Source: Erythrobacter sp. AP23 (GTDB lineage: Bacteria > Pseudomonadota > Alphaproteobacteria > Sphingomonadales > Sphingomonadaceae). Taken from it: DNA of 64,000 nucleotides. Positions 11,467 through 34,065 of this stretch are shown here, in pieces; the first letter of the stretch is position 1, and every line of letters starts with the position of its first letter. Made by a program: the position numbers and the translations under genes. A model generated the notes under the pieces. The model did not search any database and was not told where the DNA came from. It saw only the letters and a program-made list of their open reading frames with translations. The DNA lies in NCBI RefSeq assembly GCF_001542855.1, contig NZ_LNBY01000020.1:62001-126000 (forward strand), written 5' to 3'.

Positions 11467-11469
11467 GTG

Positions 11470-17572: not shown

Positions 17573-20485
17573 ATGCTTTCCGTCGCCAATGTCCGCTCGC
17601 CTTCGGCGGCGGCAAGCTACTTTGCCTCGGACAATTACTACGCCAGCGCCGATGCCGATCGTTCGGGTCAATGGATCGGTGACGGCGCGAAACGCCTCGG
17701 TCTAGAGGGGAAGGTCGAGGCCAGGGCGTTCGACGCGCTGCTGCGCGGCGAGCTGCCCGACGGGAGCAGCGTCGGCAATCCCGGCCAGGCACACCGGCCT
17801 GGGACCGATCTCACCTTTTCGGTCCCCAAGAGCTGGTCGCTGTTGGCACTCGTCGGGAAGGACGAACGGATTATTGCCGCCTACCGCGAAGCTGTCGTCG
17901 AGGCGTTGCACTGGGCCGAAAAGAACGCGGCAGAAACCCGGGTCGTCGAGAAGGGCATGGTGGTGACGCAGGCGACCGGCAATCTCGCCATCGGCCTGTT
18001 CCAGCACGACACCAACCGCAATCAGGAACCCAACCTTCACTTCCACGCGGTCATCGCCAACGTCACGCAAGGCAAGGACGGCAAGTGGCGAACGCTCAAG
18101 AACGATCGGCTCTGGCAGCTCAATACCACGCTCAATTCGATAGCGATGGCGCGCTTTCGGGTCGCAGTCGAGAAGCTCGGTTACGAGCCGGGTCCGGTAC
18201 TGAAGCACGGTAATTTCGAGGCGCGCGGGATATCGCGCGAGCAGGTCATGGCGTTCTCGACCCGCCGCAAGGAAGTGCTCGAGGCGCGGCGCGGTCCGGG
18301 TCTCGACGCCGGCCGCATCGCCGCGCTCGACACCCGCGCAAGCAAGGAAGGGATTGAAGACCGAGCGACCCTGAGTAAGCAATGGAGCGAGGCTGCGCAA
18401 TCGATCGGGCTCGACTTGAAGCCGCTGGTCGATCGCGCGCGGACCAAGGCGCTTGGGCAGGGCATGGAAGCCACGCGGATCGGTTCGCTGGTCGAGCGCG
18501 GGCGGGCGTGGCTCAGCCGCTTTGCCGCGCATGTCAGGGGCGATCCCGCCGATCCCCTGGTGCCGCCATCGGTGCTGAAGCAGGACCGTCAGACCATCGC
18601 CGCAGCGCAGGCTGTCGCCTCGGCGGTGCGCCATCTCTCGCAGCGCGAAGCGGCGTTCGAACGGACAGCGCTCTACAAGGCCGCGCTCGATTTCGGGCTG
18701 CCGACTACGATTGCCGATGTCGAGAAGCGGACACGGGCTTTGGTGCGTTCAGGTGACCTGATTGCGGGCAAGGGCGAGCACAAGGGCTGGCTTGCATCGC
18801 GCGATGCGGTCGTGACCGAACAACGGATCCTTTCCGAAGTTGCTGCCGGGAAGGGCGACAGCTCGCCTGCGATCACCCCCCAGAAAGCTGCCGCATCTGT
18901 CCAGGCGGCTGCGCTCACGGGGCAGGGGTTCCGGCTCAACGAGGGGCAATTGGCGGCGGCGCGCTTGATCCTCATATCGAAGGATCGCACGATCGCGGTC
19001 CAGGGCATCGCGGGGACCGGCAAGAGCAGCGTGTTGAAGCCCGTCGCCGAGGTACTGCGCGATGAAGGGCACCCGGTCATCGGGCTCGCGATCCAGAATA
19101 CCCTCGTCCAGATGCTCGAACGCGACACCGGGATCGGCTCGCAGACGCTGGCACGCTTTCTTGGTGGCTGGAACAAGCTGCTCGACGATCCGGGCAACGT
19201 CGCATTGCGCGCAGAAGCGCAGGCGAGCCTCAAGGATCATGTACTGGTGTTAGACGAAGCATCGATGGTCTCGAACGAAGACAAGGAGAAGCTCGTTCGC
19301 CTCGCCAATCTCGCAGGCGTTCATCGACTAGTCCTTATTGGAGACCGTAAACAGCTGGGTGCGGTCGACGCGGGCAAGCCGTTCGCGCTGCTTCAGCGGG
19401 CAGGGATTGCGCGGGCAGAGATGGCTACGAACCTGCGCGCCCGAGACCCGGTCGTGCGCGAAGCGCAGGCGGCGGCGCAGGCAGGCGACGTGCGCAAGGC
19501 ACTTCGCCATCTGAAGTCGCACACCGTCGAGGCCAGGGGCGATGGCGCGCAGGTCGCCGCTGAAACCTGGCTCGCGCTCGACAAGGAAACCCGCGCGCGG
19601 ACTTCAATCTACGCTTCGGGACGCGCAATTCGTTCAGCGGTCAACGCGGCGGTCCAGCAAGGCCTTCTCGCCAGTCGCGAGATCGGTCCTGCCAAGATGA
19701 AGCTGGAGGTCCTCGACCGCGTGAACACCACCCGGGAAGAACTTCGCCATCTCCCGGCCTATCGGGCGGGACGCGTGCTGGAGGTCTCCAGGAAGCAGCA
19801 GGCGCTGGGCCTTTTCGTTGGCGAGTACCGTGTCATTGGGCAGGACCGGAAAGGGAAGCTGGTCGAGGTAGAAGACAAGCGTGGCAAGCGATTCCGGTTC
19901 GATCCGGCACGGATCAGGGCAGGGAAGGGTGACGACAATCTCACCCTGCTCGAGCCGCGCAAGCTCGAAATCCACGAAGGCGACCGGATCCGCTGGACGC
20001 GAAACGATCACCGACGGGGTCTGTTCAATGCCGACCAGGCGAGGGTTGTCGAAATTGCGAACGGCAAGGTCACCTTCGAGACATCCAAGGGTGACCTGGT
20101 CGAGCTCAAGAAGGACGACCCGATGCTCAAGCGGATCGACCTCGCCTATGCACTCAACGTCCACATGGCGCAGGGCCTGACATCGGATCGCGGTATCGCG
20201 GTGATGGACAGCCGCGAGCGCAACCTGTCGAACCAGAAGACCTTCCTGGTGACGGTTACGAGGTTGCGCGATCACCTGACGCTGGTGGTCGACAGTGCGG
20301 ACAAGCTCGGAGCGGCCGTTGCCAGAAACAAAGGCGAGAAGGCATCGGCCATCGAGGTCACGGGAAGCGTGAAGCCTACTGCCACGAAAGATAGCGGAGT
20401 CGATCAGCCGAAATCGGTGGAGGCTAACAAGGCCGAGAAAGAGCTGACCCGGAGCAAGAGCAAGACGCTGGATTTCGGGATATGA
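17573..20485 (+). CDS. traI: TraI, MobF-family relaxase-helicase
   Basis: 970 residues. The N-terminal TrwC relaxase (about 1-290) opens MLSVANVRSPSAAASYFAS with catalytic Tyr candidates in DNYYASADAD, and has the metal-binding His cluster in NLHFHAVIAN (about residue 152). The C-terminal SF1 helicase has Walker A GIAGTGKSS (about 479), Walker B VLDEASMV (about 557), GDRKQLGAVDAG and the final motif VHMAQGLTSDRGIAV. It nicks oriT, stays bound to the 5' end and unwinds the strand. It is shorter than F TraI (1756 residues) because one helicase-like region and the C-terminal domain are missing, the usual size for this clade. It ends 21 bases from the convergent nuclease-helicase gene. Confidence 0.93.
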   Translation: MLSVANVRSPSAAASYFASDNYYASADADRSGQWIGDGAKRLGLEGKVEARAFDALLRGELPDGSSVGNPGQAHRPGTDLTFSVPKSWSLLALVGKDERIIAAYREAVVEALHWAEKNAAETRVVEKGMVVTQATGNLAIGLFQHDTNRNQEPNLHFHAVIANVTQGKDGKWRTLKNDRLWQLNTTLNSIAMARFRVAVEKLGYEPGPVLKHGNFEARGISREQVMAFSTRRKEVLEARRGPGLDAGRIAALDTRASKEGIEDRATLSKQWSEAAQSIGLDLKPLVDRARTKALGQGMEATRIGSLVERGRAWLSRFAAHVRGDPADPLVPPSVLKQDRQTIAAAQAVASAVRHLSQREAAFERTALYKAALDFGLPTTIADVEKRTRALVRSGDLIAGKGEHKGWLASRDAVVTEQRILSEVAAGKGDSSPAITPQKAAASVQAAALTGQGFRLNEGQLAAARLILISKDRTIAVQGIAGTGKSSVLKPVAEVLRDEGHPVIGLAIQNTLVQMLERDTGIGSQTLARFLGGWNKLLDDPGNVALRAEAQASLKDHVLVLDEASMVSNEDKEKLVRLANLAGVHRLVLIGDRKQLGAVDAGKPFALLQRAGIARAEMATNLRARDPVVREAQAAAQAGDVRKALRHLKSHTVEARGDGAQVAAETWLALDKETRARTSIYASGRAIRSAVNAAVQQGLLASREIGPAKMKLEVLDRVNTTREELRHLPAYRAGRVLEVSRKQQALGLFVGEYRVIGQDRKGKLVEVEDKRGKRFRFDPARIRAGKGDDNLTLLEPRKLEIHEGDRIRWTRNDHRRGLFNADQARVVEIANGKVTFETSKGDLVELKKDDPMLKRIDLAYALNVHMAQGLTSDRGIAVMDSRERNLSNQKTFLVTVTRLRDHLTLVVDSADKLGAAVARNKGEKASAIEVTGSVKPTATKDSGVDQPKSVEANKAEKELTRSKSKTLDFGI

Positions 20486-20506: not shown

Positions 20507-23500
20507 TCAAGGTTTATCGGCAAACTCACGATATCGGCAGAACGCATTTGCAAGTTGCATTTGTCTCGGCGTGCGGCACTCGGCTTCGAAGACTTGCGGA
20601 GAGCCAACCAGGATCGTCACGCATTTTGCGCGGGATGTCGCAACGTTGAGGCGATTGAGACTGTAAAGAAACTCAATGCCTCTCGGAGCGTCCGCATGCG
20701 AAGAGCTGGCGAGCGAGTAGATCGAAATCGGCGCTTCCTGCCCCTGAAACTTGTCGACGGTTCCGACACGTGCTTGCGGCAAGCGCTGCTGAATTTCGAA
20801 GACCTGGGCATTGTACGGCGCGATGATCAGAATGTCATCGCGTCCGACGGGATGCTCTTCCCCATTCCGGTCAACCCAGGTCGCTCCTTGCTGGAGGATG
20901 TCGTCTACCAAGGCTGCGATAACATCGGCTTCCTCGGGAGAGCAGTTCTGATTGCCTTTGTGTTCGACGGGCAAGAAGCGTAGCCCCGTGCCCCCAGCGA
21001 TGCCGTTGGCATTGACGCGTTGCCCAGCCGTCTCCTCCTTCGAATCAAGCTTGCCCTCATAGAAGAGTTCTGAGGTGAATCCGGAGATATCGGGATGCAG
21101 TCGCCAGGTAACGTCGAGGAACAGTCCTTCGTCAGTTGCTATCGTCTGTTTCCCCGACAAGAGATGGTCCAGACCCGAACATCCAGTGCCGTCCGGATGG
21201 CTTCCCTGCATTGGTTGGTCGAGCTGCTGAGGATCACCAAGCAAGACCAGCGTTTTGGCTGCCTGCGAGACCGCGAGCACATTTGCGAGGGACATCTGCG
21301 CAGCCTCATCGACGAAAAGAACGTCAAGACATTCAAACGCGTCTTCGGTCGACCACAGCCACGCTGTTCCGCCCGCAACCTGGCAATCGCCATACAAAGC
21401 GGAGAACACCTCACCGTTACTCTTTTTGGCAAAGCGAAGGCGGTCGGTGGCCTCTTCCTTTGAACCCCCTTTCGGCTTTTGAATGCACACAAGCGGCGTG
21501 GAGGTTTCCTCAGCAACCTCAATAACCTTGTCGAGAAGGTTGCGGATCACATCGTGGCCATTGGCCACGATCCCTACCTTTTTGCCTTGCTTCACCAGCT
21601 CGCAGATCATGTGCCCGCCAGTATGCGTCTTGCCAGTTCCGGGTGGTCCTTGGATCGGCAACACGCCTGACGCAACTAGCGGTGCAATCCGCACGCCGGC
21701 GGCCAGCGGCGTTTCGCCGTCCATCCTGATGGGCGCATCGCCTCCGGCTTGCGGGGCCACGCGCATGAGCATGTCTCGGGCAGGCCGGTAGGCATCGCCG
21801 TCGAACATGCCATGCTCGCATACATAGCGTGCCAGTCGAATAAGCGATTCCTGCATGGGCTTCGATGAAACATGCTCGTGGACGAAGATTGCTTCGGGAT
21901 GCTCGCTCGCCATGGCGGAGGTCTTCTTGATGTCGACAGTCCGGAGGCTGCGGGAAATGTCCTCGACAGAACCGACCGATTGGCCGCCCTGGACCTTAAT
22001 TCCCTTGCCCGGGCGAATGTCGGCTTCCTGAGCTGGAAAGCTGTAGCGGTCGATCGGACATTTTGCCGTTCCACCCACCGTCTCGATGTACTGCAGACCC
22101 GAGAGGCCCGCGCGCTCATCCAGCAGATCTTCTGCAGAAAGGTCGCACAGGCGGAAGTATTCCCACCAGCCTGCCTTCTCCTCGCGGCGATGCCATTCGA
22201 GCAGGTTCGCCAACAGCCAACGACCATGCTCCTCGGCCGACTGATCGGCCGGATCAACCTGCACTCCATCAGTAAGTTGCTCGATCAACGGCGTGATCAG
22301 CTCGAGCCATTCGGAGAGGTTTTCGCTTGGTGCGCCATCGGCGATCTCGGGACGTGCAATGTCGGCTCCCTGTTCGACCAATTTCTGCCGCTGCACTTCC
22401 AGCCAATCGCGCAAGTATCGCGTCGCAACGCAGTCATCGCGGTTGTAAGCTTCGACGGTCGCGCGATCCTCGGCCTCGATCCCTGCGGGATCGTTCGCTT
22501 CGAGGCACAGCTGAAGCCGCGTCAGAGCCTGGTTCGCGTCGGGCAGTTTGGCATCGCGTTCATAGCCGAAGAGAGGCTCGAGCTTTTTTATCGAATAGCT
22601 TTCGACGCCAGCGCGAATTGCGTGCCGCACGACGCTGAGAAGGTCGACCAGAACCTTGCCGCGCAACAGCCGATCGAGTTTATCCTCGCGGGTGGCATAG
22701 CGGCCCATGAGGCGCTTGAGCGCTCCCGGCTCGTATCCCCCGTAGTGATAGACATGCAGATTGGGATAAGTTTCCAGCCGCGCGATAACGAAATCGATGA
22801 AGGTTTCGAATGCTGCCTTTTCTGCCTCGCGATCGAGCGCCCAGAGCCCCTGATAGCGCTTCTCACCGCCGTCGATGTAATGAAAGCCATGGAGGTATTC
22901 GAGACCGTGCTCTCCAACAAAGGGATCACCCTCGAAATCGAGGAAGATATCTCCTTCATCGGGCTCGGGCAGGCAAGCCAAGCCAAATCCGGGGGCTGGT
23001 GCAAGGCGCTCGAATTTCAGTTCTCCTGCAAGACGGCTTTCCAGCTGAACGCGGGCCTGCTCGCGAACGCGCGTCAAGCTTTCGAGCGAGCCGCGTTCTG
23101 GCTTCCAGGACAAAGGCATGGCGAGTTCGGCAAGCTGCGCACCCGTGGTGACCCCGTGCTCCTTGAGTTCGGCGATCTGAAGGCTCGAGATCCCTGCCAC
23201 AAGACAAAGATGGTCATCGTCGCGCCGTTGCTTGTCGCAGCGGGTGCTCCACACGCAGATATCGCAATGCGCGGCCGGTTCCGGATATGACTCCTTCGGA
23301 TCCCCGCAAGCGAAATTGGCCGCCATTCCTCCCTTTACCTGGCGGTAGTATGCCCCGAAATCGGAGACGCGATAGCGCTCGGGCACAAAATTGGTCCAGG
23401 GCGGAACGACGTGCGCAAACTCCGGCATACGGCCCTGAACCTCGCCGATAAGCTCGGAATAGAGGCAAAGCTGGAGAACCGTCCCGCCTTTGGTTTCGCG

Positions 23501-23911
23501 GGCCAGCTTGGTGTCGACAGCTTCATAGGACCAACCGCCGAGATCGCTCGGCGTATCGACCTTCCGGAGGATGTCAGCGCGACCGACCCATGCGCCCGAA
23601 CGCAGAGCGCCCTGCACGATGACGTCAACGCCTGCGCGCATGGCCTTGTGCGTCGCCGCAACAGCTTCATCCTTAATCTCAACACCGTCGATACGCACGA
23701 CGTGCAGCCCGAGGGAGGCCAAGTGCTCGACATAGTCCTGCTCATGTTTAGCCCCGCGTTCCCACAGAGCTTCGAGCAGAGGATCGTAGTATTTGGGTTT
23801 CGCCAGCTCACCCTTGGCAACGGCGTGTTCAAGACCAATCAGGTGCCGACAATTGAGGTAGCCGACCAAATCGGTTGCGCTGAAGCGAAGCTGATTTCCG
23901 ACGACTTTCAA
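20507..23911 (-). CDS. RecB-like nuclease / RNase H-like / SF1 helicase fusion, fourth gene of the Shango-like operon
   Basis: I place the start at TTG 23911, overlapping the stop of the upstream helicase gene (TTGA) with GGAGA seven bases before it; an upstream GTG at 23953 would intrude 46 bases into that gene. About 1134 residues. The N-terminus (LRFSATDLVGYLNCRHLIGL) with CDICVWSTRC supplies four Cys of a predicted Fe-S cluster typical of TM0106-type RecB-like nucleases. A second part has IFLDFEGDPFVGEHG and EAYNRDDCVATRYLRDWL, the YprB-like RNase H fold. The C-terminal third is a DNA2/NAM7 helicase: GPPGTGKT (about 755), CLDVLFVDEAAQMSLAN, LGDPQQLDQP, VGTVDKFQGQEAPI. Predicted to degrade and unwind DNA with the operon's other motor proteins. 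Confidence 0.85.
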   Translation of the reverse strand: MKVVGNQLRFSATDLVGYLNCRHLIGLEHAVAKGELAKPKYYDPLLEALWERGAKHEQDYVEHLASLGLHVVRIDGVEIKDEAVAATHKAMRAGVDVIVQGALRSGAWVGRADILRKVDTPSDLGGWSYEAVDTKLARETKGGTVLQLCLYSELIGEVQGRMPEFAHVVPPWTNFVPERYRVSDFGAYYRQVKGGMAANFACGDPKESYPEPAAHCDICVWSTRCDKQRRDDDHLCLVAGISSLQIAELKEHGVTTGAQLAELAMPLSWKPERGSLESLTRVREQARVQLESRLAGELKFERLAPAPGFGLACLPEPDEGDIFLDFEGDPFVGEHGLEYLHGFHYIDGGEKRYQGLWALDREAEKAAFETFIDFVIARLETYPNLHVYHYGGYEPGALKRLMGRYATREDKLDRLLRGKVLVDLLSVVRHAIRAGVESYSIKKLEPLFGYERDAKLPDANQALTRLQLCLEANDPAGIEAEDRATVEAYNRDDCVATRYLRDWLEVQRQKLVEQGADIARPEIADGAPSENLSEWLELITPLIEQLTDGVQVDPADQSAEEHGRWLLANLLEWHRREEKAGWWEYFRLCDLSAEDLLDERAGLSGLQYIETVGGTAKCPIDRYSFPAQEADIRPGKGIKVQGGQSVGSVEDISRSLRTVDIKKTSAMASEHPEAIFVHEHVSSKPMQESLIRLARYVCEHGMFDGDAYRPARDMLMRVAPQAGGDAPIRMDGETPLAAGVRIAPLVASGVLPIQGPPGTGKTHTGGHMICELVKQGKKVGIVANGHDVIRNLLDKVIEVAEETSTPLVCIQKPKGGSKEEATDRLRFAKKSNGEVFSALYGDCQVAGGTAWLWSTEDAFECLDVLFVDEAAQMSLANVLAVSQAAKTLVLLGDPQQLDQPMQGSHPDGTGCSGLDHLLSGKQTIATDEGLFLDVTWRLHPDISGFTSELFYEGKLDSKEETAGQRVNANGIAGGTGLRFLPVEHKGNQNCSPEEADVIAALVDDILQQGATWVDRNGEEHPVGRDDILIIAPYNAQVFEIQQRLPQARVGTVDKFQGQEAPISIYSLASSSHADAPRGIEFLYSLNRLNVATSRAKCVTILVGSPQVFEAECRTPRQMQLANAFCRYREFADKP

Positions 23912-26085
23912 GACTGATCTCCAAGAATTGACGCTGCCAAATTCGATAGACACCCGGCATCAAGCCTTGAGGAAAGGGCATCGCGTCGAAGTAAGTCTTC
24001 AGTCAGGTGGGGATGGAACTTCTCGAACAACAGGTTCGGTGAATGAGCAAATAGGTCCACCTCTTTGCCATCTGCCAGAGCTGAAAGTGCGTCGATCAAC
24101 TCCGGACTTTCGTCCTTCCCAAACACTTCCAGAAACCCGTCGTGTGTCTGCACGGTGAAGCCGTTGGCGCGAAGGGCGAGTGCCAAGGTCGTTGTCCGAA
24201 CGGAACCTGTTTTGGTCGCTATGACAGCAGCGTTGTCGCTGAGCTGCGCAATCCTTCCGGGGACAAATTGCAGTTCGGTGTAATTGCTGCGTGCCTCGTC
24301 GAGTAGCTCCAGCGCAGTCGCATCAAGATAGATCGAGCGCTTTTGGCCTTCTAGAACATCGAACATTCGCTCGATCACCCGGTCATGGATGTTACCAGGG
24401 TCGCCCCCAAAGATGGGCGGCACTCCCGCTTTCGCCGGTGCAACCAGGATGACACGATCCCGGTCGAGAACTTCCTGCACCAGCCAGCGCCTGCCCGAAA
24501 AAATGAGAAGCATTCCGGGCGCAATCATGTTGTCGATGGGGAGCGTTCCAAGCTCCTTACCGCCGGAAATCAGCCGGTATTCCTCGGGTGTCTGAAATAC
24601 TGCGTAGAAGCTATAGTGCTCGACCAGCTTCTCGCCATTGGCACCGAGCAACAGAAGGCCATCGCTGGCTTGCTCAATGAGCGCGACCTCCGGTTGCCCG
24701 AGTGCTCGCAAAACATCCAGGAACAGCTGGGTATCGACCTGACGGAATGGTCCGATCTGGCAGAGAATCCCGTAGAGTTGCTGCGCACGTATTCCGCCTC
24801 GCTCGGCGATCACTGAGAGGATTTGGTGAACGAGGGTCGAAAGGTGAAGGGCCTCGCGTTGCGGCGGTTCGCACCAGCCTTCCAAAAGCAATTCGATCAT
24901 CGCTATGGCCCGCACCATCCCAAGGCGAAGTCGGTCCGAGAAATTGCTCGTCGGCGTAAGCTTCGCCTCGACTGCGTATTGTCGAAGGATGGCTGGCTTG
25001 CCCGGTCGCCGCCCTGATCGGCCAAGCCTTTGCCTGAGCGATGCGACGCTGAACGGTGCGCCAATCTGGCCGACACAGGTCACATCGCCAATATCGATTC
25101 CCAGTTCCAGCGTGGAAGTGCAGATGGCAGTTGTCGGCGCAGTACCATCTTTCAGGCGACGTTCGACGAAGTCTCGATGCTCGCGCGATAGGCTGGCGTG
25201 GTGAGGGTAAAATTCCTGCGGCAGGTATTCCTTTTCGCAAAGTGCGCGCAACCGATCTGAGTAGATTTCAACGGCCTGACGCGCACCGCCAAAGACAAGA
25301 TTGTCGCTGCCTCTCAGATGTTCGAATAGGTGCTGCGAAATGGCATCCGTCGCTGAAGGGCTTTCATCGTCCTTGTCGCCAGCAACGTAGCCACGGAGCT
25401 GAAGCTGCAATTCGGCTGATCCGCCCTCGGCAATGACCTGTTCGACTTCATCAGGGCTGTCAGGACGAAGATAAGCCTTCGCCAGCTCCATATCTCCGAG
25501 TGTGGCCGACAAACCGACCCGGCGAATAGGTCTCTTTAGAGCAATTTCGAGGCGCGTGAGAAGCGAACGCATCTGGATGCCGCGCTCACTGTCGAGGACC
25601 GAATGCAATTCATCGAGAATGACTGCGCGCGTTGCGCCAAACAGCTTCGGAATCTCCAATCCGCGTCGAATGAATAGCGCTTCAAGGGATTCCGGGGTAA
25701 TTAGCAGCACGCCCCTCGGTCGCTTGGTAGCCTTAGCCTTCACCGATGACGAAACGTCGCCATGCCACGGCGTGATAGGCAAATCTGTATCGCGACAAAT
25801 GTCTTCAAGTCGGCGCGCCTGATCGGTGATGAGCGCCTTCAGCGGCGCGACATACAGAACATCAAATCCGGAGTCCTCACTGGGTTTATCGAGCACTTGG
25901 GACAGTAGCGAGAGAAACGCGGCTTCAGTCTTGCCTCCGGCGGTGCTGGCAGCGACAATCAGGTCATGATTGCCGTCCATTAGCACGTGCGTTGCGCGCG
26001 CCTGAATATCGCGCAATTCCTTCCAGCCTTGCTGACGTATCCATTTCTGGATTGGTCGAGCCAGCTTGTCGAATGCCGTGCTCAC
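23908..26085 (-). CDS. sngC: Lhr-like DEAD/DEAH helicase, SngC-like (Shango)
   Basis: 725 residues. SF2 motifs in order: I in VAASTAGGKTEA (about 45-56), Ia YVAPLKALITDQ, Ib LLITPESLEAL, II VILDELHSV (a DELH box), III GLSATLGD, IV TSTLELGIDIGDVTCVG, VI RQRLGRSGRRPG. The C-terminal region resembles Lhr-type winged-helix extensions. Lhr-like helicases also serve BREX type 2 (BrxHI), but the neighbours (TerB protein and a DUF2791 ATPase) match the three-gene Shango anti-phage system, in which the helicase is the last gene. Start ATG at 26083-26085 overlaps the stop of the ATPase gene (ATGA), and its own stop overlaps the start of the nuclease-helicase gene, so all are coupled. Confidence 0.85.
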   Translation of the reverse strand: MSTAFDKLARPIQKWIRQQGWKELRDIQARATHVLMDGNHDLIVAASTAGGKTEAAFLSLLSQVLDKPSEDSGFDVLYVAPLKALITDQARRLEDICRDTDLPITPWHGDVSSSVKAKATKRPRGVLLITPESLEALFIRRGLEIPKLFGATRAVILDELHSVLDSERGIQMRSLLTRLEIALKRPIRRVGLSATLGDMELAKAYLRPDSPDEVEQVIAEGGSAELQLQLRGYVAGDKDDESPSATDAISQHLFEHLRGSDNLVFGGARQAVEIYSDRLRALCEKEYLPQEFYPHHASLSREHRDFVERRLKDGTAPTTAICTSTLELGIDIGDVTCVGQIGAPFSVASLRQRLGRSGRRPGKPAILRQYAVEAKLTPTSNFSDRLRLGMVRAIAMIELLLEGWCEPPQREALHLSTLVHQILSVIAERGGIRAQQLYGILCQIGPFRQVDTQLFLDVLRALGQPEVALIEQASDGLLLLGANGEKLVEHYSFYAVFQTPEEYRLISGGKELGTLPIDNMIAPGMLLIFSGRRWLVQEVLDRDRVILVAPAKAGVPPIFGGDPGNIHDRVIERMFDVLEGQKRSIYLDATALELLDEARSNYTELQFVPGRIAQLSDNAAVIATKTGSVRTTTLALALRANGFTVQTHDGFLEVFGKDESPELIDALSALADGKEVDLFAHSPNLLFEKFHPHLTEDLLRRDALSSRLDAGCLSNLAASILGDQS

Positions 26086-27386
26086 AGTCGGAAGCTGGCT
26101 AGCTCGTCGCTCTCGGGAACAGCGCCAACGCTCTCATCCACGTCGCTCATGTCGTCACCAGAATCCTCTGCCACGTCGAGTTCTTCGATGAGGTCCGACC
26201 ATTCAACGCCGGGGTTTTGTTCGAGCACGGCCAGAAGATTCACGAAAGCTGTGACCGTGTTGCGGGGGGTTCTGAAATAAGCTTCCCCGATCCTGTCCGA
26301 GCAGTGTGCCATGAACGCTTCCAAGGCGTTGTCTGGCAGGATTGTTTCATCGCCCTGCATGACGGCGCGAATGTTGGCTAGGAGCACGAACAGGTCTTCA
26401 GGTGTAAGGCTAGCTAGTCGAATGACCGGCCCGGAGAGATCGACCAGTCCGTCACGCGCAAAGGTGTTCTCTGCGAGGCGAGACTGGAGGGCGTCATAGC
26501 TGTAGAGGCCGCGCCGCGTATTCATGAGGAATTCCGGCGTTCCTCCCATGAGGAACCCAAGGTTCTCCGCGCTTCCTTGCAGAACGTCGTTCAGGATGCG
26601 CAGGATTTGCTCATAGTTGGCATTGCGGGCCTGCGATGAAGTCAGCTTGTAAAGGTTGACCATCTCGTCAAGGCCAACGAGCAGGCCCTTGTAGCCCGCT
26701 TCACAAACAAATGCCGACATCAGTTTGAGGTGATCGTAGACGCTGGCGTCATTGACGATTGTGCGAACACCCAGAGCCTTGCGAGCATCGGTCTTCGTAG
26801 CAAATTCGCCGCGCAGCCATCGGATCGCTGCCGATTTGAGCTCTTCATCGCCGGTTTCATGTCCCTCCCAATACCGGCGGATCACCTGCGCGAAGTCGAA
26901 GCCTCCTGTCAGCTCCTCGAAATGGGCAAGGCGCTGGCGAATGATGTCATCTGTCGATTGTTCTTGCGCCTCGGCATCGTGCTGGGCCTGGCTGACAAAG
27001 CGTTCGACAACATTCGACAATGCACCACCATCTGGCTTGGTCCGGGTGGCAAGATTTCGCGCCATCTCCGCGTAGAGGCCCCGTGCTTGCCCGCCGGTCG
27101 CGTGGATGCGTCGATCCGGGGCAAGGTCGGCAAACATGACGACCAGTCCCTTTTCGAGCGCCACAAGCCGGATCAGGTTCATGAAAAAGGTCTTGCCGGA
27201 GCCATACTCGCCGATGATGAAACGAATGGCTGAACCGCCATCGGCGATCCGGTCCATGTCCTTCACGAGTTCCTCGATCTCACGTGCTCGTCCAACCTGG
27301 ATGTGCCGAAGCCCCAACTTGGGAACAACACCGGCGCGTAGCGCCTGAACGATGGCGTCGCGCTCGCGCGGCTTCAGTCTCGACAT
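26082..27386 (-). CDS. sngB: DUF2791 (BrxD-type) ATPase, SngB-like (Shango)
   Basis: 434 residues. The N-terminus carries RHIQVGRAREIEELVKDMDR followed by Walker A GEYGSGKTFF and a probable Walker B in YKGLLVGLDEMVNL. This is the DUF2791 / BREX-system P-loop ATP-binding family (BrxD). Further marks are GGFDFAQVIRRYWEGH and SLTPEDLFVLLANIRAVMQG. The last 50 residues are acidic and low-complexity. In Shango the corresponding ATPase lies between the TerB protein and the helicase, exactly as here. It starts three bases after the sngA stop and overlaps the helicase start by four bases. It probably acts as a motor partner of the helicase. Confidence 0.85.
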   Translation of the reverse strand: MSRLKPRERDAIVQALRAGVVPKLGLRHIQVGRAREIEELVKDMDRIADGGSAIRFIIGEYGSGKTFFMNLIRLVALEKGLVVMFADLAPDRRIHATGGQARGLYAEMARNLATRTKPDGGALSNVVERFVSQAQHDAEAQEQSTDDIIRQRLAHFEELTGGFDFAQVIRRYWEGHETGDEELKSAAIRWLRGEFATKTDARKALGVRTIVNDASVYDHLKLMSAFVCEAGYKGLLVGLDEMVNLYKLTSSQARNANYEQILRILNDVLQGSAENLGFLMGGTPEFLMNTRRGLYSYDALQSRLAENTFARDGLVDLSGPVIRLASLTPEDLFVLLANIRAVMQGDETILPDNALEAFMAHCSDRIGEAYFRTPRNTVTAFVNLLAVLEQNPGVEWSDLIEELDVAEDSGDDMSDVDESVGAVPESDELASFRL

Positions 27387-27389
27387 GAA

Positions 27390-29918
27390 TTAATCCCCCT
27401 TCGCCATCTCGGCCCTCAACGTATCGGCTATGTCCGGCGATACGTCATATCCGTCATATTCATCGAGCAAGGCCTCATCGAACTTCTCGAAAGCCCATTC
27501 GTTTACTACCTCAAGCGCGCCAGACGGCATGAGGCCTTGCTTGCCGACGATCTCGTTAAACTCTTCGTCGGTCCAGTGTTCGCGCTGGATTATCTGCTCC
27601 ACAAGCAACGCGTGCTTAGGGTCGAGGCCAGCCATTGATGATGGAAGAGCATGTGCTGCGGTGACCTCGTCGCTCACGTCTTCGTCGGTCGAAAAAATCT
27701 CGCCCAGTACGCTTGAAACGCGCCTGGTGTCATTTCGAATAGCGGCAATACGCGCTGCATCGAGCGAAGCGGCTTTGGCTTTCGGCTCGTCCGGTATTTG
27801 TTCGCCTGGTGCTTCCGCTTCAGCGGCTTTGACGCGAACCGGGCCGTCTGGCACGTCGCCAGCATGGAGGTCGGCGTAAACGAGGCCAGCATCGATCCCC
27901 AGAGCCTTGTAGATCTTCTCGATGCAAGCCACTTCTTCGGACTGAATCACGCTGTCAGCGTGGGCTATCGCGACAACTGCCGCGCGCAGGGCCAGATGAT
28001 GCTCAGCGTCCGCATCTTTCAGCTTGCTGCGCAGCCATGACATGTCTGGCGGAATATCGAGATACCATTCGAGGTTGGCGTGGAGACGCTTTCTTTCAAG
28101 CTCGGTCAGGCCGCTAACAGCGTCGATCTTTTCACGGAGTGCTCTGCGTTCGGCTTCCACAATTTTGCTGTCGGCATGTGCGACGAAGGTCGCCAGCGCT
28201 AGTTCAAACAATTCGGTTCGATAGGCCGGGGAGACGTCTTCAAGCTGTTCGACCGGCTCGCCGAGTTCGAAGATCACAACGGGTTCGTCGATCTTCGGTC
28301 CGCGCAGCGAGAATCTTGGGTCTGGAGCCATACCGAACCCGATACGGGCGAGTGCATCCGCTGCGCCAGTCAGGTTCCGCTTGCCGAGCTTCTTCGGCGT
28401 TTCTCCTTCCAGGCGCGAGATCACATCAAGTGCTGGGACCAGCCCGCCCGTCGCTACTTGCTCGCGCGCCCAATCCTTGAGTTCTTCCAACTCGTCCGAC
28501 GGGAACAGACGCCACAGCTCAGCAGGTAGGAGCGCCTGTGCTTCAATGCTCCCGCGGCCATCTGGATTTCGTCCAAGATACCGGCTGAACTTATCGAGTT
28601 CATCCATCGCCTCATCTGCGATTTTTTGTGCTGTCTGTACCGGCGACCGCAAATCAGTAACGTCGGGAATCGTCACATCTCCGCCATCTCCTGCCGTGAG
28701 ATTGACCGAGCAATTGAACTCGCTGGATGCAGCACGATAGTCAATTTTCAGAAGCTTGCGAGGCGTTCGAACTTTCAAGCCATCAGGATAAAGCGCGTCG
28801 AACTTCAATTTGAAAAGTGCCTTGAATTCGTTGCCGCAACGCTCGGCTGGAGTGCGAAGGCGTCGCTCTGGGTGGCAATGCAGCCAGAGATGCAGCCATT
28901 CGGCATCAAAGGCTTTGCCTTCGGCTATCATGCCGCCGAGCGCGAACTTCAGCGAAAATGGCAAATCCCAGCTACGGTTCTCAAGGATCGTCTGCTTAAG
29001 TGTCGCATCATCCAAGGAGATGCCGCCCATCGCCATGATACGCGCGATGTCGAGAAACTCACCGAGATACCTTTGGGCGGAGTAATTGTGGGCGAAAAGA
29101 GCCTTCAGACGTTCCACCTCTGCAACGATTTCCTGCTTCTCATCGTCGGGTGGTTGGTCGATCAGAAACCTGCGCTCCAGACCATAGAAGAACAGGAACA
29201 TGTAGCCTGGGTTGATCGTCCCATCTTGGCGGCCACCAGCCAGCCAGTCGAGATAGGTGGCCCTGCACACGGCAGGAATGCTCGAGTACCCCGGCCAATA
29301 TGGCATGTTATCGCCAATCTTGTCAGACCCGGACCGCGCGACGGATAACGATGGGTCGATGTAGGCCCGACAGCTCTCGCCATAGTAAGATGAGCCAATA
29401 CGTGGTGGTTTGCCGACGTAGACCATCCCATCGATCGTGCGATCTGCAATGGTGACGGATTGCCCTTTGCGCACCCAACCTTGCGACCTTGGCAGTGGCT
29501 TTTCCTTCGGCTTTTTTGACTGCGAATGCTGATTTAGAAATTGGTTCGACTGGCTTTGCCGCGCCAGTTTTTCAGCTGCTCTTCGTTCCGCCGCTGCTTC
29601 AAGTTCGGCTCTCGCTTGCTGCCCAGCCCGGATAAGCTCGGCATTGTTCTGCCTTGGCTGGTATGCTCCGAGTTGGCTCAGTTGTTCGTCTTCTCTCCCC
29701 AGCGGGACAGGGCTATTTGCGAGTATCTCTCGCTCTGAGATTTTGGTTGCGCGACGCTTTTCGTACCACCAGATGAAAGCAATCGGCGCGAGGAGTGCGA
29801 ACAATGCTTCAAGCGCATCGGGTAGACTGTCCAATGCAATTGCCGCGATTATTACGCAAACAAAGAAAGAGACGACGTAAAGCCCGATAATGCGGATGAT
29901 TTTCCAGACAATCGACAT
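27390..29918 (-). CDS. sngA: TerB_N-TerB-TerB_C protein with two membrane segments, SngA-like (Shango)
   Basis: 842 residues. Two hydrophobic helices at about 5-28 and 30-52 (IIRIIGLYVVSFFVCVIIAA, then a second ending FIWWYEKRR) anchor the N-terminus. A Gln/Ala/Arg-rich linker leads to a TerB_N domain (about 150-380; RTIDGMVYVGKPPRIG, INPGYMFLFFYGLERRFL). A TerB domain follows (about 570-690; ELALATFVAHADSKIVEAER and VAIAHADSVIQSEEVACIEK, each with the acidic metal-binding pattern), and then a TerB_C-like end with REHWTDEEFNEIVGKQGLMP. Shango SngA is a TerB-domain protein; the domain may sense envelope or metal signals at phage entry. It is first in the four-gene operon. Confidence 0.82.
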   Translation of the reverse strand: MSIVWKIIRIIGLYVVSFFVCVIIAAIALDSLPDALEALFALLAPIAFIWWYEKRRATKISEREILANSPVPLGREDEQLSQLGAYQPRQNNAELIRAGQQARAELEAAAERRAAEKLARQSQSNQFLNQHSQSKKPKEKPLPRSQGWVRKGQSVTIADRTIDGMVYVGKPPRIGSSYYGESCRAYIDPSLSVARSGSDKIGDNMPYWPGYSSIPAVCRATYLDWLAGGRQDGTINPGYMFLFFYGLERRFLIDQPPDDEKQEIVAEVERLKALFAHNYSAQRYLGEFLDIARIMAMGGISLDDATLKQTILENRSWDLPFSLKFALGGMIAEGKAFDAEWLHLWLHCHPERRLRTPAERCGNEFKALFKLKFDALYPDGLKVRTPRKLLKIDYRAASSEFNCSVNLTAGDGGDVTIPDVTDLRSPVQTAQKIADEAMDELDKFSRYLGRNPDGRGSIEAQALLPAELWRLFPSDELEELKDWAREQVATGGLVPALDVISRLEGETPKKLGKRNLTGAADALARIGFGMAPDPRFSLRGPKIDEPVVIFELGEPVEQLEDVSPAYRTELFELALATFVAHADSKIVEAERRALREKIDAVSGLTELERKRLHANLEWYLDIPPDMSWLRSKLKDADAEHHLALRAAVVAIAHADSVIQSEEVACIEKIYKALGIDAGLVYADLHAGDVPDGPVRVKAAEAEAPGEQIPDEPKAKAASLDAARIAAIRNDTRRVSSVLGEIFSTDEDVSDEVTAAHALPSSMAGLDPKHALLVEQIIQREHWTDEEFNEIVGKQGLMPSGALEVVNEWAFEKFDEALLDEYDGYDVSPDIADTLRAEMAKGD

Positions 29919-30024: not shown

Positions 30025-30567
30025 TCACCTCTTCGTGCGCGCCAAACGGAAGAGTTCCGCCTGTGCGAGCGCATCGTTGAGCGGATCGTGATCGCCTTCC
30101 AGGGCTGCACCCAACTGCTTGCGCATTTTGCTTGAGCGCGTCGCCTCCCAGCTCGTTCCGGCAGATCCCATGTAGTAGGCCTTGATGTCGAGAGCGGTGA
30201 AGCCGAACGGATTTCGGCGAAGAAAACGGTGAAAATAGTAGTTCACGAAGGACCAGTCGAAGGGCGCGTTGAAACCGACAAATATGGGGGTGCCAGTCTC
30301 TCCGGCCATCTGGCCAACCCAGATCTCGAAGCGCTCCATAGCTTGGACGGGTTCGAGCCCGGTGTGTTGCAGGATCTCGAGCGACAAGCCACTGACCTCA
30401 AGCGCCTTGGGATCGGCCCGATCTGTGATCGGCTTCAGTAGGCATTCGAAATGCTGATCGGGTCTATCGACGGCGCATGCACCAATCGACAGTAGACTGA
30501 ATTCACCGGGGATCGGCCCCGATGTCTCAACATCGACCGAGATGAATATCTCCTCGGACGCAATCAT
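30025..30567 (-). CDS. DnaQ-like 3'-5' exonuclease in the CBASS operon
   Basis: 180 residues, an isolated DEDDh exonuclease domain: motif Exo I FISVDVETSGPIPG (Asp12, Glu14), Exo II FVGFNAPFDWSFVNYYF, and Exo III GDHDPLNDALAQAELF with the His and last Asp. ATG overlaps the stop of the upstream gene (TGATG), so it is the final gene of the CBASS operon. A predicted 3'-5' exonuclease (Cap18) is known as an accessory CBASS protein, and this gene fits that description, though I cannot test orthology. It could trim nucleic acid ligands or remove signalling products. Confidence 0.8.
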   Translation of the reverse strand: MIASEEIFISVDVETSGPIPGEFSLLSIGACAVDRPDQHFECLLKPITDRADPKALEVSGLSLEILQHTGLEPVQAMERFEIWVGQMAGETGTPIFVGFNAPFDWSFVNYYFHRFLRRNPFGFTALDIKAYYMGSAGTSWEATRSSKMRKQLGAALEGDHDPLNDALAQAELFRLARTKR

Positions 30568-31730
30568 CAGATCAAAGGCTCTGGGGAAACCAGGGGCGGA
30601 CGATTACGAATCGCCTGCCAGTGGGTTCGAAATGCATCCCGACGCTCCTTCAGCGATAAACTGTCATCCCAAAGTAGGCCGGAAAAGGTCGTGATGTCGA
30701 AAGGCAAGTCCGTGCCAGCACGCCCCATTACCATCGTCGGTAGCGCGCGCCCGAAAGCATAGCCGAGTTCAAGAAAGCAATTGGGGCGCCCGCCGGTGAT
30801 GTCGGCCAGTACCACTCTGCTACGATGAAGCTTTTCGAAAATCTCCTGGTCGACGCGAGAATAGTCGAAGGCCTGTTCGCCATCGATCACGACAAGACGA
30901 TAGCCCAATTCGCCCTCAATGATTGGGCGAACGACGGTCTCAAAATGGTCTTCGACCGGGCGATAGTCCGGGTGCTTGTCATTGAGTAGCCGGACAGCGA
31001 AGGCCCGTGGCGGATCCAATGCTTCGAGCAGATCGATAAGCTGATTAACTCGCTCGTCGACTTTCTGCCGTGCCGGAAAGCGGATGCGATTAAGCCAGGC
31101 ATGCGAATTTTGGTCGTCATTTGTGCGGAACAGACGTTCTGCTTGAGCGGGCTGCAGCCCGAACCGATAGAGCTGGCGGGCCCCTTCATAGTCTGCGGTG
31201 AGAGGAAGATCGAGCGGTATCACTGGCTTGCCCACAGCATGATAGAGATTGGCGAGATAGAGCACTCCCTCACCGCCGCCGAGCGTGATCAAGATATCGC
31301 CTGATCGCGCCTGGATTTCCATCCGCTTGCTGTTCATGTTCCATTGCGCGGCGTTTTCGATCTCGACCAGCGGGCTATCGCGCAACCGATCCCACAGCTC
31401 GGCCTGATCCTCGGGGATCTGGTCCTCGGTCTTGTAGTGCTGGACCGCGATCGCGAGCGGGCCGGGAATGTCGGCTGGGCGCTGATCGAGATTGGCATGA
31501 AGCGTTTGCCAGACAAGCCAATCGAAACAGACGGGCATGCTGTCTGCTTCGCGGCGCTTGTCGACGTCAATGGGAATGACAAAGTTGGCGCCGCGCTTGA
31601 TCAACGTCTTGACAAGATCTTCGACCAGCTGCCGTGCGGTTTCGACATCGGTCTTGGCCGCAATCTCCGGATCGGCGCTGATGCTTCCGGCAATGTGAAT
31701 GCGTCGTCCGGCGAGCGGCAAGCGGGGCAT
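30567..31730 (-). CDS. SLOG plus TIR-like domain protein, probable CBASS effector
   Basis: 387 residues from MPRLPLAGRRIHIAGSIS, chosen because this ATG overlaps the stop of the TRIP13 gene (TGATG); the frame is open 46 codons further but antisense-like there. The N-terminal 180 residues are SLOG-like: a first strand with IHIAGSISAD, RGANFVIPID, then RSGDILITLGGGEGVLYLA with the Gly-rich nucleotide-binding loop. The C-terminal 140 residues (VRPIIEGELGYRLVVIDGE, LHRSRVVLADITGGRPNCF, then LELGYAFG with Glu321) resemble TIR and nucleoside deoxyribosyltransferase folds, where the Glu attacks the glycosidic bond of NAD or a nucleotide. I infer the SLOG part senses the cyclic nucleotide and the TIR-like part is the toxic output. 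Confidence 0.7.
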   Translation of the reverse strand: MPRLPLAGRRIHIAGSISADPEIAAKTDVETARQLVEDLVKTLIKRGANFVIPIDVDKRREADSMPVCFDWLVWQTLHANLDQRPADIPGPLAIAVQHYKTEDQIPEDQAELWDRLRDSPLVEIENAAQWNMNSKRMEIQARSGDILITLGGGEGVLYLANLYHAVGKPVIPLDLPLTADYEGARQLYRFGLQPAQAERLFRTNDDQNSHAWLNRIRFPARQKVDERVNQLIDLLEALDPPRAFAVRLLNDKHPDYRPVEDHFETVVRPIIEGELGYRLVVIDGEQAFDYSRVDQEIFEKLHRSRVVLADITGGRPNCFLELGYAFGRALPTMVMGRAGTDLPFDITTFSGLLWDDSLSLKERRDAFRTHWQAIRNRPPLVSPEPLI

Positions 31731-32626
31731 CAGCGATCCTCCATGATCGGTGAGGCCTTCAGGCTGTGCGCTGCCTCGATCAGGTGATGGAATTTTAGCG
31801 CCTGCGCCGGAAAGGCCATGGACAAGGCGCGGGGATAGAGGCGGGTGCGAATGTCCGAATAGGTCCATGTGGGGTTATCATTCTGCTCGCCCGTCACCTC
31901 AACAAGTGCCTCTAGCTGCTTTGCGTCGAGGTCGAGCGCGCCGAGGTCCATTTCGAACAGCGCCTTGCGTTGCTCTGCGTCCGGTCGGCGAAATTCCTCT
32001 ATAATCGCTGCGCGGCGCTGCAGGGCGGGGTCGAGGACCGAGAGGCGGTTGGTGCAGAGGAAGATCACAACACGGCCGCCATAGTCGCGCAGACGATCAA
32101 CGCCTTGTATGAGCGTATTAACTGCCACCTTGTCTTCATGGTGGCTGTGCTCCTGGGCGCGGGAGGCACCAAGACTGTCGCCCTCGTCGATGATCAGAAT
32201 GGCGCGGCGATGCTTGCCGGCCGATTGAGCGACCTTGTGGAAGGCATCGGCCAAGAGCGTGCCCATTTCACCGACGAGGCCGCCACCACGAACGCGGTTG
32301 CTGAGCTTGAAGAGGATCGAATCCTCGCTGCGGGACTCGGCAACAAGGCGATTGGCGATACATTCAGCCATAGCGGTCTTCCCGGTGCCGATATCGCCAT
32401 GGAATATCACAAGCGGATATTGTTCGGCGACAAGCTCGGCCACGGCAAGCTTGCCTTTGTGATGCTTCTTGTTCCACGCCTGAAGTTCGCCGCTGTTGAG
32501 CAACAGGCGCAGCTGGTCATGAATTTTATCGAAGCGGGGCTTGAAGCCCAGCAGGGTCTTCTCCCGCGCGAACAGCAGTTCGTCGGGGAGCGCCGTCTCA
32601 TTCTCGAAGGGACTTGGTTCGCTCAT
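31730..32626 (-). CDS. cap6: TRIP13/Pch2-like AAA ATPase of type III CBASS (Cap6)
   Basis: 298 residues with Walker A GDIGTGKT (77-84), Walker B AILIIDEGDSLG (DE at about 147-148), sensor region VVIFLCTNRLSVLDPALQRR with the Arg finger and a short helical lid. In type III CBASS the TRIP13-like remodeller (Cap6) unfolds the HORMA protein to switch off the CD-NTase when no infection is sensed. Here it directly follows the HORMA gene with a four-base overlap, and its stop overlaps the start of the SLOG/TIR-like gene. Confidence 0.85.
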   Translation of the reverse strand: MSEPSPFENETALPDELLFAREKTLLGFKPRFDKIHDQLRLLLNSGELQAWNKKHHKGKLAVAELVAEQYPLVIFHGDIGTGKTAMAECIANRLVAESRSEDSILFKLSNRVRGGGLVGEMGTLLADAFHKVAQSAGKHRRAILIIDEGDSLGASRAQEHSHHEDKVAVNTLIQGVDRLRDYGGRVVIFLCTNRLSVLDPALQRRAAIIEEFRRPDAEQRKALFEMDLGALDLDAKQLEALVEVTGEQNDNPTWTYSDIRTRLYPRALSMAFPAQALKFHHLIEAAHSLKASPIMEDR

Positions 32627-33117
32627 GCTGCCCAGTCCTTGCGCTGTACGCCATAGCTGTTGCTGGCATAGTCGCGCCCACCCTTGTTGGTCAGCATCCA
32701 GTGGCTGGTATCGTCTGTCGACTTAACCCAGTTGATGTCGAGCTTGGACTTCATTCTGGCGCGCGCTGCGTCGTCGTAGTCACTCGTATAGGAGAGGATG
32801 ATGCGAAGGTAGGAATTGGCGATACGGGGCCACAAAACCCCGCCGGGGCGGCTCGACGTCCAGCTTGAAGCGTCAGTATTGACCTCGAAGCGCGTGGCGC
32901 AGATTTCGGTGTCGCCGGTGAAGAGGGTGACATCGACGGATTTGAGATAGCCTTCCTTGGCGAGCAGCTCGATGTCGTGCGCATATTGGCGCGCCTTTTC
33001 GGGGGTCCATGCGCCCGTACTATCACCGATCATCATCAGGTCGGCGCGCACTCGGGTGACGACCTTCTCGATATCGGCCGTGGTGTAAGTGCTGGTCCTG
33101 GTTGCGGTCAGGCTCAT
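32623..33117 (-). CDS. cap7: HORMA-domain protein of type III CBASS (Cap7)
   Basis: 164 residues beginning MSLTATRTSTYTTADIEKVV, which matches the N-terminus typical of bacterial HORMA family 1 proteins. The alpha/beta core follows (RQYAHDIELLAKEGYLKSVD, VTLFTGDTEICATRFEVN) and the C-terminal segment YASNSYGVQRKDWAA has the size and place of the mobile safety-belt and closure region. HORMA proteins bind a peptide signal, change shape and then activate the CD-NTase. Gene order CD-NTase, HORMA, TRIP13 is diagnostic of type III CBASS. Only one HORMA gene is present, as in CdnC-type systems. Confidence 0.8.
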   Translation of the reverse strand: MSLTATRTSTYTTADIEKVVTRVRADLMMIGDSTGAWTPEKARQYAHDIELLAKEGYLKSVDVTLFTGDTEICATRFEVNTDASSWTSSRPGGVLWPRIANSYLRIILSYTSDYDDAARARMKSKLDINWVKSTDDTSHWMLTNKGGRDYASNSYGVQRKDWAA

Positions 33118-33120
33118 GGC

Positions 33121-34065
33121 TTAGTCCTCCGTCTTGAAGCGCGGGCCGAAAATCTCTTTCCAGACCTCATTGTCGTTTTCCGCCGAGGCGAAGCTGGCAG
33201 TCTCCCAAGCCTCGTTCGCCGCCGCGACGATGTCGCGCCGTTCCTGCTCGGACAGGCGGCTGGCTACATTGTTCTGACTGGACACCGGATCAAGGATCAC
33301 CACCGGGTCGTTGAACTCGCCGAGCGGGAGGGTGTTTTCAGGAAAACTGATCTCGTCCAGGAGACCCGACTGGGCGACGTAGAGCAGGAAATTGCGGAAG
33401 CGCTGGTCGATGCTGCCGCCAGTGCCCTGCTTATCGAGCACATGGGCCATGATCAGTTCGATGGTAAAGGATTTGAGCTTGGTGATGCCGTGGTGGTTGC
33501 GCCATTTCTTGGCCATGCGCACGAGCGTGCGAAAGTCGCCGTCCGCATCCTTGCGGTCACGCACGAACTTGATCTGGCCAGGTGCGCAGGTCTCGACCGG
33601 ATCGCCGGTTTGAAGGTCGAATTGCGAGCCATAGCCGGGCCGTTCAGGATCTTCGATTACCGGCACGATGTCAACGCTGAGGCCGGTGCCAGCGAAAGTG
33701 ACGGTTGCTGCCTTGCGCTGGATTTCAAAGTCTTCAACCGACTTTGTCGGATATTGCTTGATCAGCAGTTCGTAGATCGTGTCGTTGAGGCTTTGCAGGG
33801 TTTCCTGGTCCGCATTCTTGTCGGCGATATACACCACGACATCCACATCAACCGGGTCGACCGAAGTCTTGCGCAGGATGGTGTATTTGGCGAAGGAACC
33901 GGCCTTGACGACCTTGGTGATCTTTACCTCGGTCCGGTTGCGCAGCGACTTGCACAATTCCGTGACCAGGCGGTCGACCTGCTCGTGATATTCCTTGCGT
34001 TTGTCCGCCGGCAGGCGAAGCACATTGTTGTCGTAATAGCGTAGCGCGGTATTGCTCAATGCCAT
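33121..34065 (-). CDS. CD-NTase cyclic oligonucleotide synthase of CBASS
   Basis: 314 residues from MALSNTALRYYDNNVLRLP; the frame is open 46 codons further upstream but that part is not family-like and crosses the promoter region. The nucleotidyltransferase signature is clear: KAGSFAKYTILRK (Gly56-Ser57) followed by VDPVDVDVVVYI with metal-binding Asp73 and Asp75, and a third Asp132 in LSVDIVPVIEDP. FVRDRKDADGDFRTLVRMAK and HHGITKLKSFTIELIMAH are typical of the OAS-like clades C and D. It would make a cyclic di- or trinucleotide on phage infection when bound by the activated HORMA protein. It is first in the five-gene operon and divergent from the XRE-ImmA gene. Confidence 0.88.
   Translation of the reverse strand: MALSNTALRYYDNNVLRLPADKRKEYHEQVDRLVTELCKSLRNRTEVKITKVVKAGSFAKYTILRKTSVDPVDVDVVVYIADKNADQETLQSLNDTIYELLIKQYPTKSVEDFEIQRKAATVTFAGTGLSVDIVPVIEDPERPGYGSQFDLQTGDPVETCAPGQIKFVRDRKDADGDFRTLVRMAKKWRNHHGITKLKSFTIELIMAHVLDKQGTGGSIDQRFRNFLLYVAQSGLLDEISFPENTLPLGEFNDPVVILDPVSSQNNVASRLSEQERRDIVAAANEAWETASFASAENDNEVWKEIFGPRFKTED

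Follow-up and report, generated by a model that had tools for sequence, protein, structure and literature searches.

The three-gene Shango system of Pseudomonas aeruginosa PA14, tested in strain PAO1, restricts phage modestly on plates and strongly in liquid culture (PMC10250203), and its helicase SngC groups with the BrxHI, DruE and DpdJ helicases (PMC12278908). In bacteriophage exclusion (BREX) systems the ATPase BrxD has been proposed to load or activate BrxHI (PMC12839542). We analysed a 64,000-nucleotide stretch of DNA from Erythrobacter sp. AP23 (the window; NZ_LNBY01000020.1, positions 62,001-126,000; coordinates below count within it), which holds a Shango locus with the three genes of the system tested in PAO1 and, in addition, an overlapping nuclease-helicase gene. 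We think it probable, if well short of certain, that this locus is Shango cargo on a conjugative element, with a portable, single-gene, Dna2-like nuclease-helicase joined to it at the SngC stop codon.

The locus is one minus-strand run of four long open reading frames (ORFs) from 29918 to 20507, in the order SngA-SngB-SngC-nuclease (Table 1). A reading of this DNA made from its letters and ORFs, with no database searches (the sequence-only reading), had placed four genes there and is borne out. Of the joints it proposed, the 3-bp gap between SngA and SngB stands, and the overlap of SngB and SngC is the 4-nt GTGA, SngC starting with GTG, instead of ATGA. Its TerB protein is also confirmed, with a putative membrane anchor: SngA matches TerB_N (7.3e-63), TerB_C (3.2e-24) and TerB (9.6e-08) by Pfam and has a strongly hydrophobic N-terminus (highest 19-residue Kyte-Doolittle mean 2.85, from residue 10). 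SngB is the sole PF10923 match of the genome (E <= 0.001). SngA, SngB and SngC are each recognised by their PADLOC Shango models far beyond chance, they lie in the order A-B-C with tight spacing on a single strand, and all three genes and their order are common to the Shango systems of E. coli and P. aeruginosa PA14. As judged from sequence, the first three genes are Shango, which is the gene content originally proposed. Pfam finds no nuclease domain in SngA, SngB or SngC of the window, and neither SngA nor SngB has a PDB sequence match at E <= 0.01. The PADLOC models of the BREX type 2 BrxD-BrxHI dyad also match, SngB to BrxD (3.6e-48) and SngC to BrxHI (1.7e-113); the window differs from BREX type 2, whose gene list includes PglW, PglX, PglY/BrxC and PglZ, by the presence of SngA. 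Identification of the locus as BREX type 2 was rejected on the NCBIfam BrxD score of SngB, 160 against a cut-off of 350.

The fourth gene starts at TTG 23911 within the SngC stop codon, forming a 4-nt TTGA overlap with GGAG 7 nt upstream, so that the start and ribosome site read from the letters hold. A longer ORF from GTG 23953 was ruled out because the blast alignments of homologues begin about the TTG: all 19 begin at residues 13-21 of the longer ORF, 12 of them exactly at residue 15, which is the TTG, and the remainder at most 6 residues away. The protein scores 245.5 bits against TIGR03491 (curated cut-off 97.45), which defines the TM0106 family as a sequence class, and is the only match to it in the genome (E <= 0.001); further Pfam matches are RNase_H_2, AAA_12 (3.7e-27) and AAA_11. 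Residue conservation was assessed over 20 aligned members, the window protein and 19 relatives of 34-96% identity, and the residues given in Table 1 are those that we take, from general knowledge of the families, to form the nuclease, iron-sulfur, DEDD and superfamily 1 (SF1) helicase motifs. The nuclease, exonuclease-like and helicase parts of the sequence-only reading are recovered, and the cysteines are conserved. An AlphaFold2 model of the protein (mean predicted local distance difference test score 77, predicted template-modelling score 0.52) has Dna2 (5ean) as its top PDB match in Foldseek (E 6.6e-22, 1,228 alignment columns), with a TM-score so low (0.25) that the arrangement of domains is not established. 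Dna2 has its nuclease first and then its SF1 helicase, and the window protein differs from the eukaryotic enzyme by an RNase_H_2 domain in between. The model and domain matches suggest a Dna2-like build to which an exonuclease domain has been added, and the corresponding enzymatic activities are predicted. Our literature search on TM0106 returned only corrosion papers.

Table 1. Features of the AP23 window. Residues are numbered from TTG 23911, and fractions refer to the 20 aligned members; aa, amino acids.
Feature	Coordinates	Strand	Evidence or residues
SngA, TerB_N/TerB/TerB_C protein, hydrophobic N-terminus, 842 aa	27390-29918	-	PADLOC SngA 1.6e-98
SngB, BrxC/BrxD-type (DUF2791) ATPase, 434 aa	26082-27386	-	PADLOC SngB 2.3e-179; PF10923 2.6e-156
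SngC, Lhr/BrxHI-like superfamily 2 helicase, 725 aa	23908-26085	-	PADLOC SngC 4.1e-270; DEAD 1.1e-27; Helicase_C 1.7e-14
Fourth gene, TM0106-family RecB-like nuclease + RNase_H_2 + SF1 helicase, 1134 aa	20507-23911	-	TIGR03491 1.1e-72
RecB/PD-(D/E)XK nuclease region of fourth gene	23222-23911	-	D113, D133, K135, Q147, Y151 (motif D133-T-K135) identical in 20/20; C21, C216, C219, C225 conserved in 19/20
RNase_H_2/DEDD exonuclease region of fourth gene	22400-22948	-	Pfam 6e-21; D325, E327, D423, D493 identical in 20/20
SF1 (Upf1/Dna2-like) helicase motor of fourth gene	20597-21670	-	AAA_11, AAA_12; K761, D868-E869, R937, D1053, Q1056, R1094 identical in 20/20
TrwC-type relaxase, convergent with nuclease gene, 21 bp apart	17573-20485	+	Pfam TrwC 6.9e-79
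CBASS-like cluster upstream of Shango, separate system	30025-34203	-	PADLOC matches
TraG-like conjugation protein, far end of cargo region	39006-41708	-	Pfam TraG_N 1.5e-138

Shango loci were sampled from plasmids, genome contigs (80 loci, the best 80 of 580 relatives and so biased to close relatives), viral contigs (8 loci) and further genomes, sets that overlap in part. Removal of duplicates, of loci without SngC and of loci without an ORF-called, same-strand, neighbouring SngB left 107 loci, or 72 clusters at 90% SngC identity; the near-identical SngC genes of L045, L113 and L146 may represent one or two lineages, the genes of sampled loci are greedy ORF calls, and some loci, such as L149, stop soon after SngC. 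A TM0106 gene lies behind SngC in 2 of the 107, the window and locus L112 of genome G516, which belongs to a different genus of the same family. The fourth gene is on this count no constant or regular component of Shango, and the view of the sequence-only reading that the nuclease is the regular output of a Shango variant is not supported; the nuclease-behind-helicase overlap that was to be counted occurs in only these two of the 107 loci. Among 397 genomes of the family the nuclease (E <= 1e-220) occurs in 9 and SngC (E <= 1e-140) in 11, the two adjoin in 2, and 7 of the 9 close nuclease copies do not adjoin Shango genes. SngC is present in 6 of 60 genomes of the window's own genus, where the nuclease was seen at the window locus only (L149 ends about 0.7 kb past SngC). 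Most Shango loci are without the nuclease, including same-genus loci with 94-96% identical SngC, and G516 itself has a second Shango copy that lacks it (L111). Full-length copies 92-100% identical to the window nuclease occur in four genomes (its own, G433, G516 and G555), two of which have SngC, and G693 has an incomplete 95% copy with Shango on a separate contig. Two plasmid records appear among both the nuclease matches (60 of 69) and the SngC matches (60 of 809) listed, with the two genes about 15 kb and 250 kb apart. Besides the window genome and L112, the only tabulated Shango locus with the nuclease is L004, where it is encoded on the strand opposite to SngC, some 15 kb away; of the 8 viral-contig loci, 7 have a recognisable SngC and none of these 7 has the nuclease gene.

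Close copies of the nuclease gene are found mostly away from Shango genes, the result that the sequence-only reading had named as one that would refute it, and in the company of other systems. It follows PglX-PglZ-BrxL of BREX-I in G433 (L138; gap about 100 nt), McrB-like and McrC genes in G424 and G813 (L139 and L157; gap 18 nt), and two BrxD-like ATPases and a BrxHI-like helicase in G793 (L158; gap 215 nt). The G555 copy (L137) lies beside HmaA and phospholipase D (PLD) genes, on the opposite strand, the incomplete G693 copy (L159) beside the PLD genes of G555, the G468 copy beside unassigned genes, and the gene in G168 (L179) downstream of an HsdR gene of type I restriction-modification (RM), about 4 kb away. 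Copies behind the McrBC or BrxD/BrxHI-like operons have 78% protein identity to that of the window. At the DNA level the window nuclease gene is 94.9% identical to L137 and 93.9% to L138, from 23895 to 20532 and 20522, so that similarity gives out no more than about 15 nt from the start and about 25 nt from the stop of the gene. The Shango core, in turn, is 90-95% DNA-identical to L017, L018, L045, L111, L145 and L146, where the nuclease is not directly behind SngC (L018 ends at a contig edge), and similarity to these six ends at 23993-23971. In 150-nt steps identity is 85-100% between the core and three-gene loci, 89-99% between the nuclease gene and L137 or L138, and 78-99% with L112. Because near-identical copies stand behind or beside other defence systems and their similarity ends at the gene edges, the nuclease appears to be a portable addition rather than a Shango component, an exchangeable nuclease-helicase accessory set on a Shango core.

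Portability of this kind would also suit a nuclease that works on its own, as a single-gene system for defence or against plasmids, present by chance at a cargo hotspot and overlapping SngC through uncoupled packing, an explanation that we regard as possible but rather unlikely. It draws support from close copies that accompany four or more further kinds of system, from DNA similarity confined to the gene, from the strand of the nuclease in L137, opposite to its neighbours, and from the scattering of SngC and nuclease among the genomes with near-identical copies, G693 included. Chance placement fits less well with the window, L112, L138, L139, L157 and L158, in all of which the nuclease is the last same-strand gene of a multi-gene core (gaps of -4 to about 215 nt), or with the TTGA junction, which the window and L112 have kept despite 11% DNA divergence.

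Two side observations concern these partner loci. The L158 operon (4369-12312, minus strand) encodes two BrxD-like ATPases, a BrxHI/SngC-like helicase and proteins of 293 and 763 aa before the nuclease gene; its PADLOC matches are moderate to weak, and it is possibly an undescribed relative of Shango or BREX. The McrB-like/McrC pair of L139 and L157 is preceded by a 495-aa gene, which in L139 is Cas4-like.

The junction itself carries information on how core and nuclease came together. L112 is 89.1% identical to the window across the 8,980 nt that span SngA to the nuclease gene inclusive, and is the only locus that aligns through the SngC/nuclease junction; the TTGA overlap is common to both, with similar residues on either side. 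The SngC tree has L112, followed by the window, splitting off ahead of the three-gene loci (0.997, 0.994), and the nuclease tree has L112 splitting off ahead of the copies in the window, G433, G555 and G693 (1.000). The simplest reading of the two trees and the junction, and one that is not secure, is a single joining event after which the parts would have separated. Independent origin of the window and G516 junctions was considered and judged less likely, since the two loci align across the junction and share a SngC tail and first nuclease residues that differ from those of unlinked loci; the conflict between the SngB and SngC trees leaves it some probability. Between G516 and the window, protein identity is 97% for SngB, 93% for the nuclease, 92% for SngC and 81% for SngA within the block, and 91% for the TraG neighbour, 82% for TraG, 64% for the relaxase and 57% for w18 in the backbone; provided that contig C1 of G516 closes on itself, the block has opposite orientations in G516 and in the window with respect to the relaxase and TraG genes.

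Several results weigh against the explanation that we favour, beginning with the count of 2 in 107 loci. The SngB tree, in conflict with the SngC tree, pairs the window with L018 (0.974) and sets it amid the three-gene loci, which makes an older four-gene state insecure and recombination within the core possible. SngA is no more alike between G516 and the window than TraG, and the TraG neighbour is nearly as alike as the block. The BREX-linked and Hma-linked copies resemble the window nuclease more than that of L112 does, and the partnership with Shango is therefore loose. Defence islands, moreover, juxtapose unrelated defence genes, and the overlap may be mere compact packing.

On its conjugative element the Shango locus lies as cargo with the relaxase gene on one side and traG on the other, and a cargo slot of this kind is the shared setting of the nuclease-gene loci, because 6 of the 8 family loci other than the window have a relative of the window TraG within about 6 kb (L112, L137, L138, L139, L157 and, weakly, L158). 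Such a setting invites the proposal that the nuclease serves the element, in repair or recombination of transferred DNA, and not defence. The gene adjoins the relaxase gene in the window and is at most three genes from a TraG relative in L112, L138, L139, L157 and L158, and one relative lies on a rhizobial plasmid (L005) near error-prone polymerase genes. The same-strand genes that precede the nuclease are nonetheless defence genes and not transfer genes. The host genome also holds its own AddB elsewhere (contig C1), so that no general end-processing enzyme is missing and the accessory nuclease therefore fills no missing housekeeping role; we consider service to the element very unlikely.

The cluster resembling a cyclic-oligonucleotide-based anti-phage signalling system (CBASS) upstream of Shango comprises genes for an exonuclease effector, a TIR effector, TRIP13, an unscanned 164-aa protein and a cyclase (PADLOC: effectors 8.5e-87 and 1.8e-202, TRIP13 3.2e-124, cyclase 5.4e-123), and in L019 and L020 relatives of three of its genes also lie upstream of Shango, no more than 6 kb away. 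Directly upstream of SngA in the sphingomonad loci L045, L111, L112 (the other four-gene locus), L113, L145, L146 and L161, and not in the window, is an AbiEii (and AbiEi) gene; the AbiEi gene of L112 sits at the other contig end (L155). Within SngA, the N-terminal region and the TerB part are alike among relatives and the stretch between them is a fast-changing linker; blastn found nothing to match 29749-29483 (minus strand) in loci, L045 and L111 among them, with more than 90% identity elsewhere. In L046, a contig of a gammaproteobacterial metagenome-assembled genome, the order, near a contig edge, is permuted, with SngC first and then SngA and SngB.

Other nuclease-helicase modules stand behind Shango in some loci. 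Genes for an AddB-like PD-(D/E)XK protein and an AddA-like UvrD helicase abut SngC in L010, L033 and L048 (gaps of -4 to 2) and are found close to it in L095, L115, L170 and, on the opposite strand, L041 (pairs recognised by Pfam in L010 and L095, and by phmmer or annotation elsewhere). SbcCD-like pairs lie downstream of SngC in L003 (opposite strand), L009, L015, L030 and L043. L009 also has a HerA-like gene downstream, as do L022-L024, L027 and L047, where it is on the opposite strand. By coordinates, AddB adjoins SngC in at least 8 of 60 AddB plasmid records, as compared with the 60 of 809 SngC records listed. Six AddA/AddB loci were examined, one of them Shango and chosen because it was known; in four of the others the partners are BREX-1, multiubiquitin/ThiF, a methyltransferase-helicase pair and ThiF/JAB, and the last lacks an evident core. 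This pair, too, is portable. In L010, after Shango, and in L167, beside BREX-1, AddB and AddA are followed by a large DEAD/DEAH helicase family gene, perhaps forming a three-gene cassette.

A phmmer search of Shango flanks with 16 seed proteins covered 84 loci that have 4 kb or more of downstream sequence and found a module gene within 4 kb downstream in 20 of them; the upstream count was 3 of 71. Of 57 loci with both flanks, 14 had one downstream only and 2 upstream only (sign test 0.004); for 38 clusters at 90% SngC identity the numbers were 8 and 0 (sign test 0.008). Within 6 kb, a module gene lies downstream in 24 and upstream in 5 of the 107 loci. HsdR loci, the sole control system (27 of 46 listed matches taken, one dropped as the gene was not found), had a module gene in 1 of 26 (Fisher 0.023 against 20 of 84), that one being a TM0106 gene. 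By the same search 64 of the 84 downstream flanks are without any module gene. The bias has to be discounted in part: it is inflated because 15 of the 16 seeds come from Shango downstream flanks, module genes do occur upstream (L028, L031, L163, L077 and a weak example in L072), and in a seed-free Pfam scan the downstream and upstream pools differ only slightly. That scan, of genes of at least 300 aa starting within 3 kb in one locus per cluster (38 loci), found AAA_23 in 4, UvrD in 2 and PDDEXK_1 in 2 of the downstream genes (n=51) and each at most once upstream (n=55); it agrees in direction with the downstream bias, and the effect is modest.

A mechanism can be proposed in which SngA at the membrane would sense infection, SngB, an ORC/Cdc6-like ATPase, would load or activate the SngC helicase on phage DNA, and the fourth protein would unwind and degrade DNA opened or ended by SngC. 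A helicase system that lacks an evident nuclease would thereby gain an output that destroys DNA, and the accessory is exchangeable, with AddA/AddB-like or SbcCD-like genes downstream of SngC in some other Shango loci. We infer destruction of phage DNA by the fourth protein from its sequence features. Overlap of SngC with an end-processing nuclease-helicase, as in these loci, suggests that the core makes or exposes DNA ends.

BREX and BREX-related systems offer a parallel, as auxiliary nucleases (HNH, HKD, PD-(D/E)XK, TOPRIM/OLD, HEPN, PIN and Schlafen) are likewise recruited beside a BREX core; none of the terms RecB, AddB, UvrD, Shango, TerB or RNase H turned up in the main text of that paper (PMC12839542). 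The main text of the Shango paper does not contain the word nuclease (PMC10250203). In the literature searched we found nothing on AddAB with Shango or on Shango with a backup or effector nuclease, and the titles and starts of abstracts among the matches listed, with subscription literature mostly outside their coverage, held no description of Shango combined with this nuclease. Synergy of Druantia III and Zorya II requires RecBCD (PMC13192584), a dependence that serves as an analogy for defence cores that carry a private RecBCD.

A broader and more speculative proposal, which we hold as doubtful, is that defence loci on alphaproteobacterial mobile elements share interchangeable end-processing cassettes, each a private substitute for RecBCD or AddAB. 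It would cover Shango, BREX, McrBC, RM-like and ubiquitin-like loci, with Dna2-like TM0106, AddA/AddB-like and SbcCD-like cassettes joined at gene edges. If it is true, a private cassette would let the core work when phage Gam or Gp5.9 blocks the host enzyme, and escape from phage inhibitors of RecBCD is, by analogy, an attractive possible reason to carry the accessory. The occurrence of the same nuclease beside Shango, BREX and Hma genes and, more distantly, McrBC suggests that these systems share interchangeable DNA-degrading parts, parts that annotation system by system omits.

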